Assembly: GCA_026416715.1 (NCBI GenBank)
Contig: JAOAEQ010000044.1
Coordinates: 1 to 6,258 of the forward strand
From: a bacterium
GTDB lineage: Bacteria > UBP4 > UBA4092 > JAOAEQ01
DNA length: 6,258 nt
Direction of reading: 5' to 3'
Position 1 is the stretch's first letter. The number at the start of each line of letters is the position of its first letter. The position numbers were made by a program, and so were the translations under genes. The notes under the pieces were generated by a model. That model did not search any database. It was not told where the DNA came from and worked only from the letters and a program-made list of their open reading frames with translations. This document shows, one piece after another, positions 1 to 6,254 of this stretch.

Positions 1-10
1 TGATTGATTT

Positions 11-129
11 CAGCCGTCCCTAGCGGGACTTTATAATATTACCGTTTATTTTTCCCAGCATTGCATGCTGGGCTAAAATCAGATGCCCCTAGCGGGGCTA
101 ACAAAATGCTTTTAATTAACCGCATTATA
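11..129. repeat. Palindromic half cassette A-B-C (left copy)
   Basis: Three small hairpins follow in fixed order. A is GTCCC-TAGC-GGGAC at 16-29, B is CCCAGCAT-TGC-ATGCTGGG at 54-72, and C is GCCCC-TAGC-GGGGC at 85-98. A linker reading taacaaaatgctttt and then aattaaccgcattatac leads into the next A hairpin at 130. The same half cassette recurs at 1885-2005 with near-identical linkers. It is non-coding, and the short open frames crossing it are products of the palindromes. It resembles REP/BIME-type elements in general form; no transposase is present in the window. Confidence 0.85.
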
Positions 130-327
130 CAGTCGTCCCTAACGGGACTATATGTTCGTCACATCATTTTTTCCCAGCATTATATGCTGGGCTAACCCCA
201 ATCGCCCCTAGCGGGGCTACCAAAATGCTTTGGGTTAATCCCGTTAGGGAAGATTGGAATTAGCCCAGCCATTCATGGCTGGGGACATTTCAGCGGAAAT
301 AATTATGAGTCCCGTTAGGGACGACTG
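130..327. repeat. Full palindromic cassette A-B-C-C'-B'-A' (copy 1)
   Basis: Six hairpins occupy about 198 bp: A 135-148, B CCCAGCAT-TAT-ATGCTGGG 173-191, C GCCCC-TAGC-GGGGC 204-217, C' TCCC-GTTA-GGGA 239-250, B' CCCAGCCAT-TC-ATGGCTGGG 264-283, and A' GTCCC-GTTA-GGGAC 309-322. The second half is the inverted counterpart of the first. The outer 20 bp are an exact inverted repeat: cagtcgtccctaacgggact at 130-149 matches the reverse complement of 308-327. The element ends 4 bp from the stop codon of the TPR gene, so the A' hairpin would form the immediate 3' end of that mRNA and could act as a terminator or stabiliser (inference). No U-run follows it. Confidence 0.88.
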
Positions 328-331
328 GTGG

Positions 332-1621
332 TTATTTCTCGCCGAGCCATGTTTTCACTTTTTGTTGAATTGCGACCGCTGCAGGTTCTTCGGTAGATAC
401 TGCAAGTATCTGGTTCAACAAGTCACGCGCTTCCTTATTTTTCCCGCAATACCATGCGGATAGCGCTAGTTGGTATCGTGCTTGCATAACTTCCGGAAAC
501 GCTGCATAATTCGGTTGAACGGCAAGGAACGCTTCTAGTTCTTTTTCATTCAGGCCAGGTTCAGGTTGATAGGGAGCGATAAGCGTATCTAATACCGTCT
601 GAAAATGATTGTATGCTTCCAGATAGTTTCCTTTTTTCAATTCAATCCATCCTTTTGTATCAAGATACGCTGTTGGGTTAGAATCAGGTTCTGCGGATAC
701 TAATCGGAGTGCACTATCAATCAATAAGGTTGCTCGGTCTAGGTTAAATCCGTTTTCAGCGTAAAAGTATGCGAGATTATTTAATAGTGTAGGACTTTTC
801 GGGTCACGAGCGAGACAATATTCATAGAGCATTTCTGCACTGTTGATTCGTCCCATGAGTGAATACGTATTTGCGAGTTCATAGAATACTTGCGGATGGT
901 CCGGAACAAGTTTTTGCGCGGTATATAATTGCGATACGGATTCGTTATATTTGTTCTGATTGCGCAACTGGATTCCGTAAGCTACATAAAGGTTAAATAG
1001 CATTGCTTTATTCTGCTCCGTTTTCGCTTTCCGATATAGAGTATCCGCTAGCTGGATTGCTGAAGGGTAATCTCGTAGGGTTTGATATATTTGAATTTTA
1101 AATTCAGTAGCTGTGGTTAAATCCGGTTTTAACTGAAGGACGGTATCTAGTGCTTGTAATGCTTCTTGATATTTTCCTATTCGGTGATACCCTACTGCAA
1201 GTTGATAGTATGCTTTATAATTTTTCGGATTGAGTTTGACTACGGTCTGGAATGTATTGATTGCTTCCTGCGTGCGATACGCTTGCGGATGGATATAAAC
1301 CAACCCCAGATTATAATAAGCAGCTTCAAATTCCGGATCTAGCTCAATTGCTTTTTTCCAGGCAGCTACCGCATTATCATATTTTTCTAGATAGACATAC
1401 GCTAAACCGAGGTTGTAATATGCTTTAGCATTCGTTGAATCTGTAGTTAGATATTGTTCAAACACCGTAGTCGCTTCAGCATATTTTTCTTGTTTTAATA
1501 ATTCTATTCCTTGGTTGTATAGATTTTGTATTGCAGATTGTTCAGGTTGAGTTGTAGAAGCGTAAGTTAGTGAAAAATAAATTAATATTGATACCGTAAA
1601 TAATATAGATATTCTATTCAT
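332..1621 (-). CDS. Secreted tetratricopeptide-repeat (TPR) protein
   Basis: A 429-residue protein made almost entirely of about nine to ten TPR units. Clear examples are residues 67-97 (AKAYYNLGLAYVYLEKYDNA), 101-133, 136-168, 245-276 and 317-350, with the usual small and aromatic positions (YYNLG, Y..A, LDP). The third unit carries a short insertion (HPQAYRTQEA). The first 21 residues form a Sec signal peptide: M-N-R, a hydrophobic core, then a likely cut after L-T-Y-A. I chose the ATG at 1621 over one at 1645 because AAGGA at 1633-1629 sits 7 nt before it and because the signal peptide begins there. No lipobox is visible, so the protein is probably periplasmic or secreted. TPR arrays bind other proteins; the partner cannot be inferred. 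The gene is enclosed by palindromic repeats, 4 bp after its stop and 33 bp before its start, and has no coding neighbour on the left within the window. Confidence 0.93.
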   Translation of the reverse strand: MNRISILFTVSILIYFSLTYASTTQPEQSAIQNLYNQGIELLKQEKYAEATTVFEQYLTTDSTNAKAYYNLGLAYVYLEKYDNAVAAWKKAIELDPEFEAAYYNLGLVYIHPQAYRTQEAINTFQTVVKLNPKNYKAYYQLAVGYHRIGKYQEALQALDTVLQLKPDLTTATEFKIQIYQTLRDYPSAIQLADTLYRKAKTEQNKAMLFNLYVAYGIQLRNQNKYNESVSQLYTAQKLVPDHPQVFYELANTYSLMGRINSAEMLYEYCLARDPKSPTLLNNLAYFYAENGFNLDRATLLIDSALRLVSAEPDSNPTAYLDTKGWIELKKGNYLEAYNHFQTVLDTLIAPYQPEPGLNEKELEAFLAVQPNYAAFPEVMQARYQLALSAWYCGKNKEARDLLNQILAVSTEEPAAVAIQQKVKTWLGEK

Positions 1622-1628
1622 AAGTACA

Positions 1629-1634
1629 TCCTTT
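1629..1634 (-). promoter_or_regulatory. Ribosome-binding site that decides the TPR start
   Basis: AAAGGA on the minus strand lies 7 nt before ATG 1621. No comparable Shine-Dalgarno sequence precedes the upstream in-frame ATG at 1645, where the palindromes begin 10 bp away. Confidence 0.6.
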
Positions 1635-1654
1635 TTGCATAACATAAATTTACT

Positions 1655-1857
1655 CAGTCGTCCCGAACGGGACTTTATTATACTATTAAATCATAATTAC
1701 CAGCAATAAATTGCTGGGCTAGAATCAATCGCCCCGTATCGGGGCTAACAAAATGCATTTGGTTAATCCCGAAGGGATGATTGGGATTAGCCCAGCCATT
1801 TATGGCTGGGAATGTAATTGCCGGAATCAAATAATGTAGTCCCTCGGGGACGAATGA
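1655..1857. repeat. Full palindromic cassette A-B-C-C'-B'-A' (copy 2)
   Basis: The order of six hairpins matches 130-327: A GTCCC-GAAC-GGGAC 1660-1673, B CCAGCAA-TAAA-TTGCTGG 1700-1717, C GCCCC-GTATC-GGGGC 1731-1745, C' ATCCC-GAA-GGGAT 1766-1778, B' CCCAGCCAT-TT-ATGGCTGGG 1791-1810, and A' GTCCC-TCG-GGGAC 1839-1851. The centre reads taacaaaatgcatttggtta. Loops and linkers differ from the other copies while the stems stay paired. Unlike the other two full cassettes, no half cassette stands before it. It begins 33 bp upstream of the TPR start codon and must contain or adjoin that gene's leader. Confidence 0.87.
1677..1711 (-). promoter_or_regulatory. Possible promoter of the TPR gene inside a palindromic cassette
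   Basis: A perfect -10 hexamer TATAAT lies at 1682-1677 on the minus strand, in the AT-rich spacer between hairpins A and B. The best -35 candidate is TTGCTG, which overlaps the arm of hairpin B, with a long 19-bp spacing. Transcription would start within hairpin A, about 50 nt before the TPR start codon. The -35 match is weak and AT-rich spacers give TATAAT by chance, so this is tentative. Confidence 0.3.
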
Positions 1858-1884
1858 ACCATAGGAAAATATGAGGATTGGTTT

Positions 1885-2005
1885 CAGCCGTCCCTAACGG
1901 GACTTTACAATATTACCGTCTATTTTTCCCCAGCATTGCATGCTGGGCTAGAATCAATCGCCCCGTATCGGGGCTAACAAAATACTTTTAATTAACCACA
2001 TTATA
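1885..2005. repeat. Palindromic half cassette A-B-C (right copy)
   Basis: The hairpins are A GTCCC-TAAC-GGGAC 1890-1903, B CCCAGCAT-TGC-ATGCTGGG 1929-1947, and C GCCCC-GTATC-GGGGC 1960-1974. The linkers (ttacaatattaccgtctattttt; acaaaatacttttaatta) closely match those at 11-129, so the two half cassettes are copies of each other and not independent assemblies of common hairpins. The next A hairpin follows 121 bp after this one starts, compared with 119 bp in the left copy. Confidence 0.86.
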
Positions 2006-2206
2006 CAGCCGTCCCTAGCTGGACTCCACGAGGTTTCGCATCTTACCTTCCCAGCAAAAAATTGCTGGGCTAGAATCAATCGCCCCTGTCGGGGCTGACA
2101 AAATGCGCTTTCGGTTAATCCCGTTAGGGATGATTGATTATATCCCAGCTATTCATGGCTGGGAACCAATGAAGGTAAAACCGAGAATCCCGTTCGCGAC
2201 GATTGA
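2006..2206. repeat. Full palindromic cassette A-B-C-C'-B'-A' (copy 3, partly degraded)
   Basis: The hairpins are A GTCCC-TAGC-TGGAC 2011-2024 (one mismatch), B CCCAGCAA-AAAA-TTGCTGGG 2050-2069, C GCCCC-TGTC-GGGGC 2082-2095, C' ATCCC-GTTA-GGGAT 2118-2131, B' CCCAGCTAT-TC-ATGGCTGGG 2144-2163 (one mismatch), and A' at 2187-2200 (ATCCCGTTCGCGAC). Both outer A hairpins have decayed while the inner stems are largely intact. With the half cassette at 1885-2005 it forms a composite that matches 11-327. Confidence 0.85.
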
Positions 2207-2251
2207 ACCCTGAACCTAAACCCCGAACAATTACCAAAAATATTTTGATAT

Positions 2252-2296
2252 AAAAAAACCAGGGTCGGTCGATTTAATTTTCGACCTTCCCTGGTT
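2252..2296 (-). terminator. Intrinsic terminator of the 827-residue protein gene
   Basis: On the minus strand the stem is AACCAGGG (2296-2289) with CCCTGGTT (2264-2257), continued by GGTCGA (2286-2281) with TCGACC (2272-2267) across a 2x2 internal loop. A run of seven T (2258-2252) follows directly. It lies about 40 bp after the stop codon at 2338. No matching T-run exists on the plus side, so the terminator acts in one direction. Confidence 0.88.
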
Positions 2297-2313
2297 AAAA
2301 ATGAGCTACAACC

Positions 2314-2367
2314 CTTTCTCGGTTGAACTATCGATTGTTAATTAATCAAAGCTTCAAACCGAGAAAG
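2314..2367 (-). other. Hairpin spanning the stop codon of the 827-residue protein gene
   Basis: CTTTCTCGGTTGAA (2314-2327) pairs with TTCAAACCGAGAAAG (2353-2367), giving 14 bp with one bulged A. The 25-nt loop contains the stop codon (2340-2338). The upstream arm encodes the L-S-R-F-E part of the C-terminal motif. The true terminator is a separate structure about 20 bp further on. Confidence 0.6.
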
Positions 2368-4821
2368 TTCTACTGGAACGGCTTTCGGAGATGTCCACAT
2401 GTAGATTTGTCCGTACGGTCTTGTTGCAGCTGTTCCTGCCCAGGCACCGAATATAACCCTCGTGCTGCCATCCGGGTAAATTGCGACATCTGCGCCACGT
2501 GGTGTCGGTCCATTGTTAGCTAAATTATCAGTAGAATAGACACCTTCAATAGTTCCATCCGTCTTCATTACGGTTAATTGGTCAATACCTTCACAGGTAA
2601 CATTGTTATCCCGTGGAGTACCAATGTATACTAACGTAACACTTCCACCGATAATCGCTGGAATAGTTTTCACACGTAACGCTGATGACATAGCACGGAA
2701 TCCTGAGGTTCCATTGGTTCCTCTGCATGCACCAAGGTAGAACGGTAAATCTTCCTGGACATAGGTATCAAGTCCAGCACCGGTTTTCTTAAACCGCCAG
2801 ACGATACCATTTCCGTCAGCCCAGTAGATATCCTGCGTCGGACTTGCCGTATCGCAACTAATCTGACCTCGGGTAACTTGTGAGAGTGACCCACGAACTG
2901 GATACCAGGCGATATGGTCACCGTTTGCCGCATGGGCATTGAATCCCCAGTATGACCATAAGCTCGTCACGAAATAGTTCCCGTCTTTATCGAAGGTAAC
3001 ACCGTATGGGTTCGCCGTTACTGAGCGGTTCCCAGCGGTTCCTGGACCAGTATAGTTGTACGGATTCGCTCCGGCTTGTCTCAGATAGCAAATATAAACT
3101 GTATCGCCAACAGATAAGAGATTGGTTAACCCAGTAGCATAAACTTTAACCCGGTTGTTTGCAACATCTAATCCGTTGTTGAATGCGACACGGACCCAAA
3201 CATCCGGCGTTCCCGGTAACGGATTCGTGAGAATTAGCGTGCCAGTCGTATCCATCAGATTATGGACAGCGACGTTAACATTTTCTGGTGGTTCACCAGT
3301 ATATACGACAAACGCTGAACCGAGCGATAACGTCGTATCAATTCCGCCGGTTGCTGCATAGATTCGCGGTGCAGTTGGGCTGATACTCCAGTATCCACCA
3401 GGTCCGATACCGAGGTACCGAGATGTGGTATCACCAGTTTCTCGGCCGGTGAAGAAGTTCATACCAACACGATTAATGTTCGTAAAGATACCGGTTACCG
3501 TTCGAATCGGTCCCCATGGACAATCGACATAATCCAGATTCGTTACCGGAACCCATTCAGCGCAAGTGCGAGAGCTCCAGAAGTTGATACCAGCCATATT
3601 TGCGTCAGTATATACACCGAGTACACCGGAAATCGGTTTTCCCGCTAACGGAATCCCGGTTATCAAGGTTGAACTCGCTGGAGTGATAGGTCCGAACATT
3701 GTTGTTCCATAGCTTGAGTAGATTAACCGCGATTTCGCAGTATTGAATCCAGGAACTTTCCCTGCAATGAACTGGTCAGTGATAACGCCTGACATTCCAC
3801 CTAGTTCATACGTAGTAATAGTACTAACGCTTAACACATTCGCTACCGTAACAGGTTCCCACATTACCGGATGACCGTAAATATTCAATGCAGTTTCAGC
3901 GGCTAACGTTGCGGCGTCGTATTTCCATACCGCACGATGTCCTGGCTGTAATTGACCGACATGGACAAATAGCATTTGACCAGGAGGATGTGGTGCGTTC
4001 AGTTCAATTACACCTGTAATCGGGTCAAACCGACCGAATGAACCGCTAACATAAACTGTTCTCGGAGCACTAGGAATTTGCGTGTTAACCCAGATTGTTC
4101 GTGCCGCTTCATCGAAACCACCGCCAGTATAGAAGTTGGTACCTAACCCCGTAGCATTCGTGAATACACCGGTTACGGCAACTAACGCTTGGGTGCCAGG
4201 AAGTTTAACACACCATCCGTTCGCTTCGCAGGTTACCGGAATAAGCGTAAATGCGGTTGCACCAGCATACAGTTGGGTACCGCCCCAGGTATCTTCAACA
4301 GCGGTTGATGCTGTTGTCGAAATGCCGGTAACGTTATATAACGGATATTTTGCGCTCACATACGGGAAGGTTACGGTAACACTATCCGCATTAACTGGAC
4401 AGTAGGTTCGAGGAACCATGTTTAGGTTATCGAATCCCCAGCGGTCGCAAACGAAATGCATTTTGCCACCGTACATATCAGCATTACCGAACATTGATTT
4501 CAGCGCTACCAGTTTATCTCCGTTTGGAAATACTCGTTCACGAATGATATATTTCGGCGTAACGCTATCGTAGGTCGGATCAGTTGAATCCATTGACCAA
4601 CCAAGGATAAGCGCCCGGCTACCAGTGCCAGTAAAATACTGACCGACAAACGCAGCGTCTAGAATCGGGTTATATAACACGCAACCGTTAACTTTATTAC
4701 TGGGATCACCAGGTACGTTGAACGCTAACGAGGTCAAAAACGAATAGTTGACAATATTCCCAGCAAACGATACTGATGCGAGCAAAACAACCATTAAACT
4801 TAATCCTAAAAATTTTTTCAT
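2338..4821 (-). CDS. Large secreted modular protein with C-terminal P-V-E-L-S-R-F-E-A motif
   Basis: An 827-residue exported protein of unrecognised family. The signal peptide is MKKFLGLSLMVVLLASVSFA, with the likely cut after A20. A repeated segment of form V-T-G-[VI]-[FY]-T-[ND]-x-N-x-x-G-x-N-F-[YFW] occurs near residues 217-235, 400-415 and 442-458. Two copies continue to S/T-A-P-R-[TI]-[VI]-Y, which suggests tandem beta-sandwich or stalk modules. From about residue 605 on, blade-like strands (YGVTFDKDGNYFVTS; DIYWADGNGIVWRF) suggest an NHL- or propeller-like part. The protein ends P-V-E-L-S-R-F-E-A at 816-824, three residues before the end; the 256-residue protein shares this motif. I prefer ATG 4821 because it opens the signal peptide and has GGAGG 10 nt upstream; an in-frame ATG at 4881 also has a strong site. 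It has its own promoter and terminator. A surface or extracellular role is inferred; no catalytic motif is visible. Confidence 0.88.
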   Translation of the reverse strand: MKKFLGLSLMVVLLASVSFAGNIVNYSFLTSLAFNVPGDPSNKVNGCVLYNPILDAAFVGQYFTGTGSRALILGWSMDSTDPTYDSVTPKYIIRERVFPNGDKLVALKSMFGNADMYGGKMHFVCDRWGFDNLNMVPRTYCPVNADSVTVTFPYVSAKYPLYNVTGISTTASTAVEDTWGGTQLYAGATAFTLIPVTCEANGWCVKLPGTQALVAVTGVFTNATGLGTNFYTGGGFDEAARTIWVNTQIPSAPRTVYVSGSFGRFDPITGVIELNAPHPPGQMLFVHVGQLQPGHRAVWKYDAATLAAETALNIYGHPVMWEPVTVANVLSVSTITTYELGGMSGVITDQFIAGKVPGFNTAKSRLIYSSYGTTMFGPITPASSTLITGIPLAGKPISGVLGVYTDANMAGINFWSSRTCAEWVPVTNLDYVDCPWGPIRTVTGIFTNINRVGMNFFTGRETGDTTSRYLGIGPGGYWSISPTAPRIYAATGGIDTTLSLGSAFVVYTGEPPENVNVAVHNLMDTTGTLILTNPLPGTPDVWVRVAFNNGLDVANNRVKVYATGLTNLLSVGDTVYICYLRQAGANPYNYTGPGTAGNRSVTANPYGVTFDKDGNYFVTSLWSYWGFNAHAANGDHIAWYPVRGSLSQVTRGQISCDTASPTQDIYWADGNGIVWRFKKTGAGLDTYVQEDLPFYLGACRGTNGTSGFRAMSSALRVKTIPAIIGGSVTLVYIGTPRDNNVTCEGIDQLTVMKTDGTIEGVYSTDNLANNGPTPRGADVAIYPDGSTRVIFGAWAGTAATRPYGQIYMWTSPKAVPVELSRFEALIN

Positions 4822-4831
4822 TATACTATCC

Positions 4832-4839
4832 CCTCCTTT
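4832..4839 (-). promoter_or_regulatory. Shine-Dalgarno for the preferred start at 4821
   Basis: AAAGGAGG on the minus strand lies 10 nt before ATG 4821, in the context gaaaggaggggatagtata. It resembles the site at 4893-4900 closely in sequence and spacing. Confidence 0.7.
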
Positions 4840-4892
4840 CTGTAGGGAAATGGTTTTTACCATACTACTTTTTTCAAACATTATGATTTATC

Positions 4893-5461: not shown

Positions 5462-6232
5462 TTATGGTAGAATATTCGCTTCAAATCGGGATAATTTTAC
5501 CGGAGTATATGTTTCCTGTCCCGGATAAATTGTCCACGGCCCACTAGTTTTCGTCCCAAGTAGGTTATTATTCAAATCGCGATATTCGATAAATGCTACT
5601 TGCCCAACTGGTACCGCCATTTTAACATATCCGGGGACTGTCGGATATCCTTCGGAAATACCATTATCTTCGGTAATATAACTACCGAGAATATTCCCCA
5701 TACTATCTTTAGCTAATGCAACGATTTTTGCACCGAATGCGCAGGTATCAATTAACCAACCCGCCATGCTCGCATTCCATGCCATCAGTTCCGGACGAGT
5801 ATAAGTATCATAGTTTGAACTTCCAAAACGCATACGAACAACACAGGTACTCATCCCAACATTTAATGATGTTGATTTTGCAAATAACCAACCAGAAACA
5901 GTACCACTAGATACAATAGGTAGATGATGACTCGAAGGCCACGCTTGCGCATCATTCGTCCATGCCGGACTTACGATAGCGGTGTTCCAAGTATAAGCAT
6001 TCGTGAGTGTATTGATACCCCATGCGGGTAGCTGTAATCGCACTTTACAAGTTACCATACTATGACTGCCGATGACAGTTGTCCAACTGCTAAACCAAAC
6101 TGCAAACGGTGTGGTTGTATCCGCCATATAACCGGCAGGAGCGATTACGATATCACTTGCATAAGATATTCCGGCACCTGCGACAATTGATAGCATTACT
6201 AACCCGAAAATAAATAATTTAATTAATTTCAT
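5462..6232 (-). CDS. Secreted protein with C-terminal P-V-K-L-S-R-F-E-A motif
   Basis: A 256-residue protein of unrecognised family. The first 25 residues are a Sec signal peptide (M-K-L-I-K, hydrophobic core, A-G-I-S-Y-A before S-D). The mature part is rich in Trp, Ser, Thr and Tyr and looks all-beta, with features such as TPFAVWFSSWTTV, TCKVRLQLPAWG and VSGWLFAKS, and three isolated Cys residues (in VTCKV, STCVV and DTCAF). It ends P-V-K-L-S-R-F-E-A at 244-252, four residues before the end, like the neighbouring 827-residue protein although the rest of the two is not obviously related. ATG 6232 was chosen over a GTG at 6247 because the signal peptide starts there and the Shine-Dalgarno AAAGGAGGT (6254-6246) overlaps that GTG; it lies 14 nt before the ATG. 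An extracellular or surface role is inferred. The promoter lies beyond the right end of the window. Confidence 0.88.
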   Translation of the reverse strand: MKLIKLFIFGLVMLSIVAGAGISYASDIVIAPAGYMADTTTPFAVWFSSWTTVIGSHSMVTCKVRLQLPAWGINTLTNAYTWNTAIVSPAWTNDAQAWPSSHHLPIVSSGTVSGWLFAKSTSLNVGMSTCVVRMRFGSSNYDTYTRPELMAWNASMAGWLIDTCAFGAKIVALAKDSMGNILGSYITEDNGISEGYPTVPGYVKMAVPVGQVAFIEYRDLNNNLLGTKTSGPWTIYPGQETYTPVKLSRFEANILP

Positions 6233-6245
6233 TGAGATAAGGTTC

Positions 6246-6254
6246 ACCTCCTTT
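6246..6254 (-). promoter_or_regulatory. Shine-Dalgarno of the 256-residue protein gene
   Basis: AAAGGAGGT on the minus strand, 14 nt before ATG 6232. The spacing is long but follows the 10-11 nt seen at the next gene. The site rules out the GTG at 6247-6245, whose first base is the last G of GGAGG. Confidence 0.6.

Follow-up and report, generated by a model that had tools for sequence, protein, structure and literature searches.

The 6,258-nt stretch of DNA analysed here (contig JAOAEQ010000044.1, hereafter the window) carries hairpin cassettes that are probably arrays of end modules of a non-autonomous, REP/REPIN-like single-strand transposon, which a Y1 transposase (TnpA) of subclass 1.2 would move, or would formerly have moved, in trans. 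The cassettes match, both in sequence and in layout, arrays that border an IS200-type transposase gene in other phyla and therefore look like small mobile elements whose transposase is missing here. Their halves recur in copies of fixed internal order, come in two unlike types and are associated with the subclass 1.2 group in several phyla.

Hairpin halves in the window and in the source genome

The window contains eight halves, each made of three hairpins in the order A-B-C; six of them form three cassettes and two are extra halves (11-102 and 1885-1978). Each half was matched by R1, a covariance model built from 43 halves, and each B-C pair by the Rfam family RF01687 (Acido-Lenti-1). An unpaired type 1 half on the plus strand (11-102; R1 88.9 bits, E = 3.7e-19; RF01687 at 54-99, 31.6 bits) precedes copy 1, in which a plus-strand type 1 left half (130-221; R1 89 bits; RF01687 at 173-218) and a minus-strand type 2 right half (234-327; R1 90.1 bits; RF01687 at 237-283) are separated by a 12-nt hinge from C to C′ (222-233). 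Copy 2 likewise comprises a plus-strand type 1 left half (1655-1749; R1 83.9 bits; RF01687 at 1699-1746), a 12-nt hinge (1750-1761) and a minus-strand type 2 right half (1762-1856; R1 73.7 bits; RF01687 at 1765-1810). A 28-nt A′-A junction (1857-1884) joins this right half to the second extra half, which is of type 1 on the plus strand (1885-1978; R1 93.6 bits; RF01687 at 1929-1975), and 1762-1978 as a whole is a C′B′A′-ABC doublet, the prevailing form in other genomes. Copy 3 consists of a plus-strand type 1 left half (2006-2099; R1 79.3 bits; RF01687 at 2050-2096), a 14-nt hinge (2100-2113) and a minus-strand type 2 right half (2114-2205; R1 70.2 bits; RF01687 at 2117-2163) with a degenerate A′ (CGTCGCGAACGGGATT).

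Exact and near-exact repeats bore out the original prediction of three A-B-C-C′-B′-A′ cassettes at 130-327, 1655-1857 and 2006-2206, as well as its claim that the outer 20 bp of copy 1 (130-149 and 308-327) form a perfect (100%) inverted repeat. The central hinge that it described as aaaatgc...ggttaat is present, but proved to consist of two tails (TAACAAAATGC) in inverted orientation that are joined at TGC. When folded as single-stranded DNA, copy 1 reached −58.7 kcal/mol (z = −10.9), and none of 200 shuffled sequences folded as well. The consensus flanks of the hairpin unit read CAGYCG at the 5′ side and TAACAAA at the 3′ side. Plus-strand and minus-strand halves differ in their C stems (C1, GCCCC..GGGGC, versus C2, ATCCC..GGGAT, with TTCCC in copy 1) and also in their B stems (AGCAT/AGCAA versus AGCCAT).

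A search of the source genome (2.96 Mb, 64 contigs, rated 100% complete) with R1 gave 78 matches representing 75 distinct halves in 38 clusters. The half order A-B-C was constant throughout, as had been predicted, and random order was not seen; the variants lack A or are chained as A-B-C-B-C. In the chained forms C doubles as the next A (overlaps of −22/−23 nt), which shows A and C to be the same kind of hairpin. Of the three hairpin families originally proposed, the fixed order thus stands, while A and C collapse into one kind and C is not the same as C′. At least seven contig ends lie inside the repeat (C15, C21, C26, C43, C44, C46 and C48); the assembly therefore breaks there and copies are undercounted. 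At the start of contig C48 (L069, 1-190), a 73-nt B-C unit occurs three times in tandem, and A hairpins are absent. At six loci (L056, L057, L058, L059, L062 and L064), a second repeat, approximately CACCGCAGAG...CTCTGCGGTGAAAA, adjoins the C end of type 2 halves; next to or inside hinges, it widens the C-C′ gaps to 53-125 nt.

With genes called by simple ORF rules, 31 of 33 mapped clusters overlapped no predicted gene; among the 33 examined, 15 lay between codirectional, 8 between convergent and 4 between divergent genes. Inverted junctions comprised 15 C-C′ and 13 A′-A, the latter mostly 25-38 nt wide. In having many copies (75 halves), lying outside genes (31/33 clusters) and forming inverted doublets (15 + 13 junctions), the repeat resembles REP-like extragenic repeats.

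Doublets of two unlike halves

In a sample of 100 loci from other genomes, picked by hairpin pattern, there were 60 A′-A junctions versus 3 C-C′ junctions, and isolated C′-B′-A′-A-B-C doublets made up 56 of the clusters. The original prediction was therefore right in proposing a defined repeated unit of conserved order but not in taking A-B-C-C′-B′-A′ as that unit: the latter is one phase of an array, and the generic doublet has A inside.

The two types of half can be told apart by their stems: type 1 has B = CCAGCAT..ATGCTGG and C = GCCC..GGGC, and type 2 has B = CCAGCCAT..ATGGCTGG and C = ATCCC..GGGAT. By B type, unlike halves are joined at 25 of 26 junctions, the remaining one being untypable and a few labels having been resolved by eye. 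Among 25 doublets taken from several other genomes, reading of the C hairpins and tails revealed two different ends in 24, with one ambiguous. The simplest reading is an element whose left and right ends differ.

Four loci in Planctomyces-like genomes (L163, L168, L179 and L181) carry an extra outer inverted repeat, approximately ACTCAAACTGAGCGGTTTTGT, beyond the C hairpins, and a match in G019 (L071) appears to follow the same grammar with other stems.

A transposase of subclass 1.2 beside the arrays

An ORF for a Y1 transposase adjoins the same arrays in six loci, which come from Acidobacteria, Planctomycetes, Verrucomicrobia and Hydrogenedentota. The encoded protein is short and IS200-like, and has the Y---Q--HH motif of subclass 1.2 TnpA_Y1 (PMC6006769), a group described as near the IS200 transposases, present in low copy number and generally lacking typical IS200 terminal structures, and said not to share IS properties (PMC6006769). 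Class 3 TnpA was considered as the partner and dropped, since its Y motif differs (YV[VI][AENY]EQ with NHVH (PMC6006769), versus YIxxQxxHH in the flanked proteins).

We compared 90 Y1 loci, 49 encoding proteins with Y---Q--HH and 41 encoding proteins without it. Of the 49 Y---Q--HH genes, 27 had halves at a distance of no more than 400 bp, versus none of the remaining 41 (Fisher p = 8e-10); 21 of these 41 came from the same 12 cassette-bearing genomes. All 49 Y---Q--HH proteins fell into one clade (support 0.82), and in 14 of 18 genes flanked on both sides A was the hairpin nearest the gene on each side, giving the arrangement C′B′A′-tnpA-ABC. Y1 genes were present in all 12 cassette genomes tested, and a profile built from flanked proteins (A2) likewise matched in all 12, with 1-9 copies each, so that every one of them encodes subclass 1.2 TnpA. 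Six of these genomes had been picked because tnpA lies near a hairpin, which inflates the association; in the six picked by hairpin only, the flanked gene was found in five.

Model R1 found no half at 22 of the 49 subclass 1.2 genes. Among 116 genomes not chosen by hairpins there were seven full-length subclass 1.2 genes, of which five were bordered by stem-loops upstream as well as downstream and a further one (L295) by a strong stem-loop upstream only, as scored by a simple script without random control. These stem-loops were mostly of sequences unlike the present family and R1 recognised only some of them, suggesting that the 22 unflanked genes may carry diverged arrays. At L302 and L292-L294, in unrelated genomes, two or three hairpins whose sequences are quite different border subclass 1.2 tnpA. 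Elsewhere, in a cassette-bearing genome, a Y1_Tnp ORF has a group II intron (RF02001/RF01998) as its immediate neighbour (L212, 1114-1400).

The original prediction had called for a search for REP-associated tyrosine transposases (RAYT) flanked by the same hairpins. A flanked transposase of Y1 type does exist in other genomes, but it is not RAYT proper: all three flanked proteins tested passed the NCBIfam cut-off for IS200/IS605 (NF033573), whereas they scored at most 20.5 bits against the REP-transposase family NF047646, whose cut-off is 80. Our repeats share with REP, BIME and REPIN sequences their extragenic palindromes, inverted doublets, high copy number and, in a REPtron-like manner, a repeat-flanked Y1 HuH transposase, and these likenesses would suit classic REP/BIME elements moved by RAYT (TnpAREP, class 2). 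We nevertheless consider that origin very improbable, since none of the Y1 proteins with the Y---NP motif has a half next to it, the partner is of the IS200-like subclass 1.2, each half has three hairpins rather than one, left and right halves differ, and the consensus flanks of the halves contain no GTAG or GTGG foot beside a hairpin. CGTC-tagged REPs (PMC3733652), which we compared by reading only, are similar in having CGTC at one palindrome end, inverted dimers and no known dedicated transposase, but differ in stem and tail consensus, and no CCA tail was seen in our repeats. The features shared with IS200/IS605 elements and their small derivatives are a partner that passes NF033573 and has the Y---Q motif, and distinct hairpin-bearing left and right ends; what sets the present arrays apart is that each end has three hairpins and that the ends are in inverted orientation.

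That the window itself lacks a transposase, as originally noted, was confirmed. The trans-acting gene envisaged elsewhere in the source genome did not materialize, as neither PF01797 nor profile A2 detected a Y1 gene there; the repeats are thus orphans in this genome, or tnpA lies within an assembly gap at the repeats. A same-class relative (G001) has neither the tnpA gene nor the repeat, and overall the repeat is patchily distributed, occurring in the source genome and in one of 115 others. This pattern bears on the idea that the hairpins are architectural repeats, such as binding sites for gyrase or a nucleoid protein or recombination hot spots, immobile and kept by selection. Their extragenic position, with 31 of 33 clusters clear of predicted genes, would fit such a role, but the patchy distribution, the absence from the same-class relative and the link to a transposase leave it hardly any probability.

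Among the loci compared we saw neither a clean empty site nor a target duplication, which speaks against the end-module reading, as do the lack of a Y1 gene in the source genome, the 22 subclass 1.2 genes where R1 found no half and the published description of that subclass. One orthologous intergenic region (L156 versus L122) lacks the doublet in one genome, and the two sequences are too diverged to show a footprint. Two further length differences were set aside, the 182-bp difference between L125 and L162 being a short gene-like insert rather than a doublet and the approximately 260-bp difference after tnpA between L149 and L204 being unrelated to the hairpins.

In IS200/IS605 and REP systems the transposase binds hairpins in single-stranded DNA, cuts and rejoins the strand; IS200/IS605 elements are excised as single strands and inserted 3′ of a short target without target duplication. 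By analogy, each half of approximately 93 nt would be a recognition module in the end-module reading that we prefer, and two unlike halves in inverted orientation would form one element with a left and a right end. A Y1 HuH TnpA of subclass 1.2 would bind the single-stranded hairpins, cleave the DNA next to them and then rejoin the ends. The autonomous form may be the C′B′A′-tnpA-ABC unit of approximately 700 bp, and the doublets of approximately 200 bp may be tnpA-less forms moved in trans; the elements of the source genome would then be orphans or would depend on a tnpA hidden in an assembly gap.

Acido-Lenti-1 and the surroundings of the cassettes

RF01687 is entered in Rfam as an sRNA whose function is unknown. 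The original publication describes Acido-Lenti-1 as a candidate RNA of Acidobacteria and Lentisphaerae that is not cis-regulatory, and draws no link to transposases (PMC2864571). The B-C hairpin pair fits the family in all eight window halves, with one (1765-1810, 44.7 bits) exceeding the gathering score of 37 bits and the other seven scoring 21.8-31.6 bits, and the source genome has 14 copies above the gathering score. In contrast to the RNA description, the pair here belongs to a longer DNA repeat, which adds a third hairpin and has a partner in mirror image. Matches to miRNA families in Rfam fell below their gathering scores and were taken as chance.

The hairpins might instead function at the RNA level, either as the Acido-Lenti-1 sRNA or by terminating transcription or stabilising mRNAs at gene ends. 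Besides the Rfam entry, such a role is favoured by covariation of the stems (94.5% of cells paired, with 51 double changes; 0 of 500 shuffles), by the location of most loci between genes that are codirectional (15) or convergent (8), versus 4 between divergent ones, and by 10 terminator-like sites in window positions 1-2400 where 2.1 are expected. The doublet, however, is self-complementary and occurs in both orientations, and stem mismatches comprise, in small number, G·T and A·C equally (12 each), whereas an RNA would favour G·U; this equality suits selection on DNA in both strands over one RNA strand. An RNA role would also leave the link to one transposase clade unexplained, and we regard it as unlikely.

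Set against the more specific end-module reading, a broader proposal, for and against which the chances appear evenly balanced, is that Y1 proteins of subclass 1.2 and multi-hairpin arrays make up a distinct system of single-strand transposition that is widespread among bacterial phyla and has unlike three-hairpin ends, with Acido-Lenti-1 as its DNA end module, and that some genomes, including the source genome, keep the arrays without the transposase. What appears to be new, judged from sequence comparison, is the interpretation of Acido-Lenti-1 at the DNA level, the pairing of subclass 1.2 TnpA with a DNA partner, and ends that have three hairpins and fall into distinct left and right types. 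An Rfam family now filed among the sRNAs would thereby acquire a DNA-level meaning, and a transposase subclass described without IS-like ends would gain its cognate DNA. Three hairpins and unlike ends would be a new end architecture for HuH Y1 enzymes, and the source genome offers a test of how a REP-like population behaves once its transposase is gone.

The interval between A′ of copy 1 (ending at 327) and A of copy 2 (starting at 1655) holds a minus-strand gene for a TPR-repeat protein (332-1645; Pfam TPR_1, E = 4.5e-32). We considered this gene as cargo and found no support, other clusters lying at varied distances from varied genes; it is more probably a neighbour. A strong hairpin resembling an intrinsic terminator (2258-2297) follows a minus-strand gene of 847 aa, and the promoter of the TPR gene therefore probably lies within or right beside the cassette array. 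Farther along the window, 2338-4881 and 5462-6247 encode two secreted-looking proteins, which had no match in Pfam or NCBIfam and have in common a C-terminal PV[EK]LSRFEA motif resembling a sorting signal.
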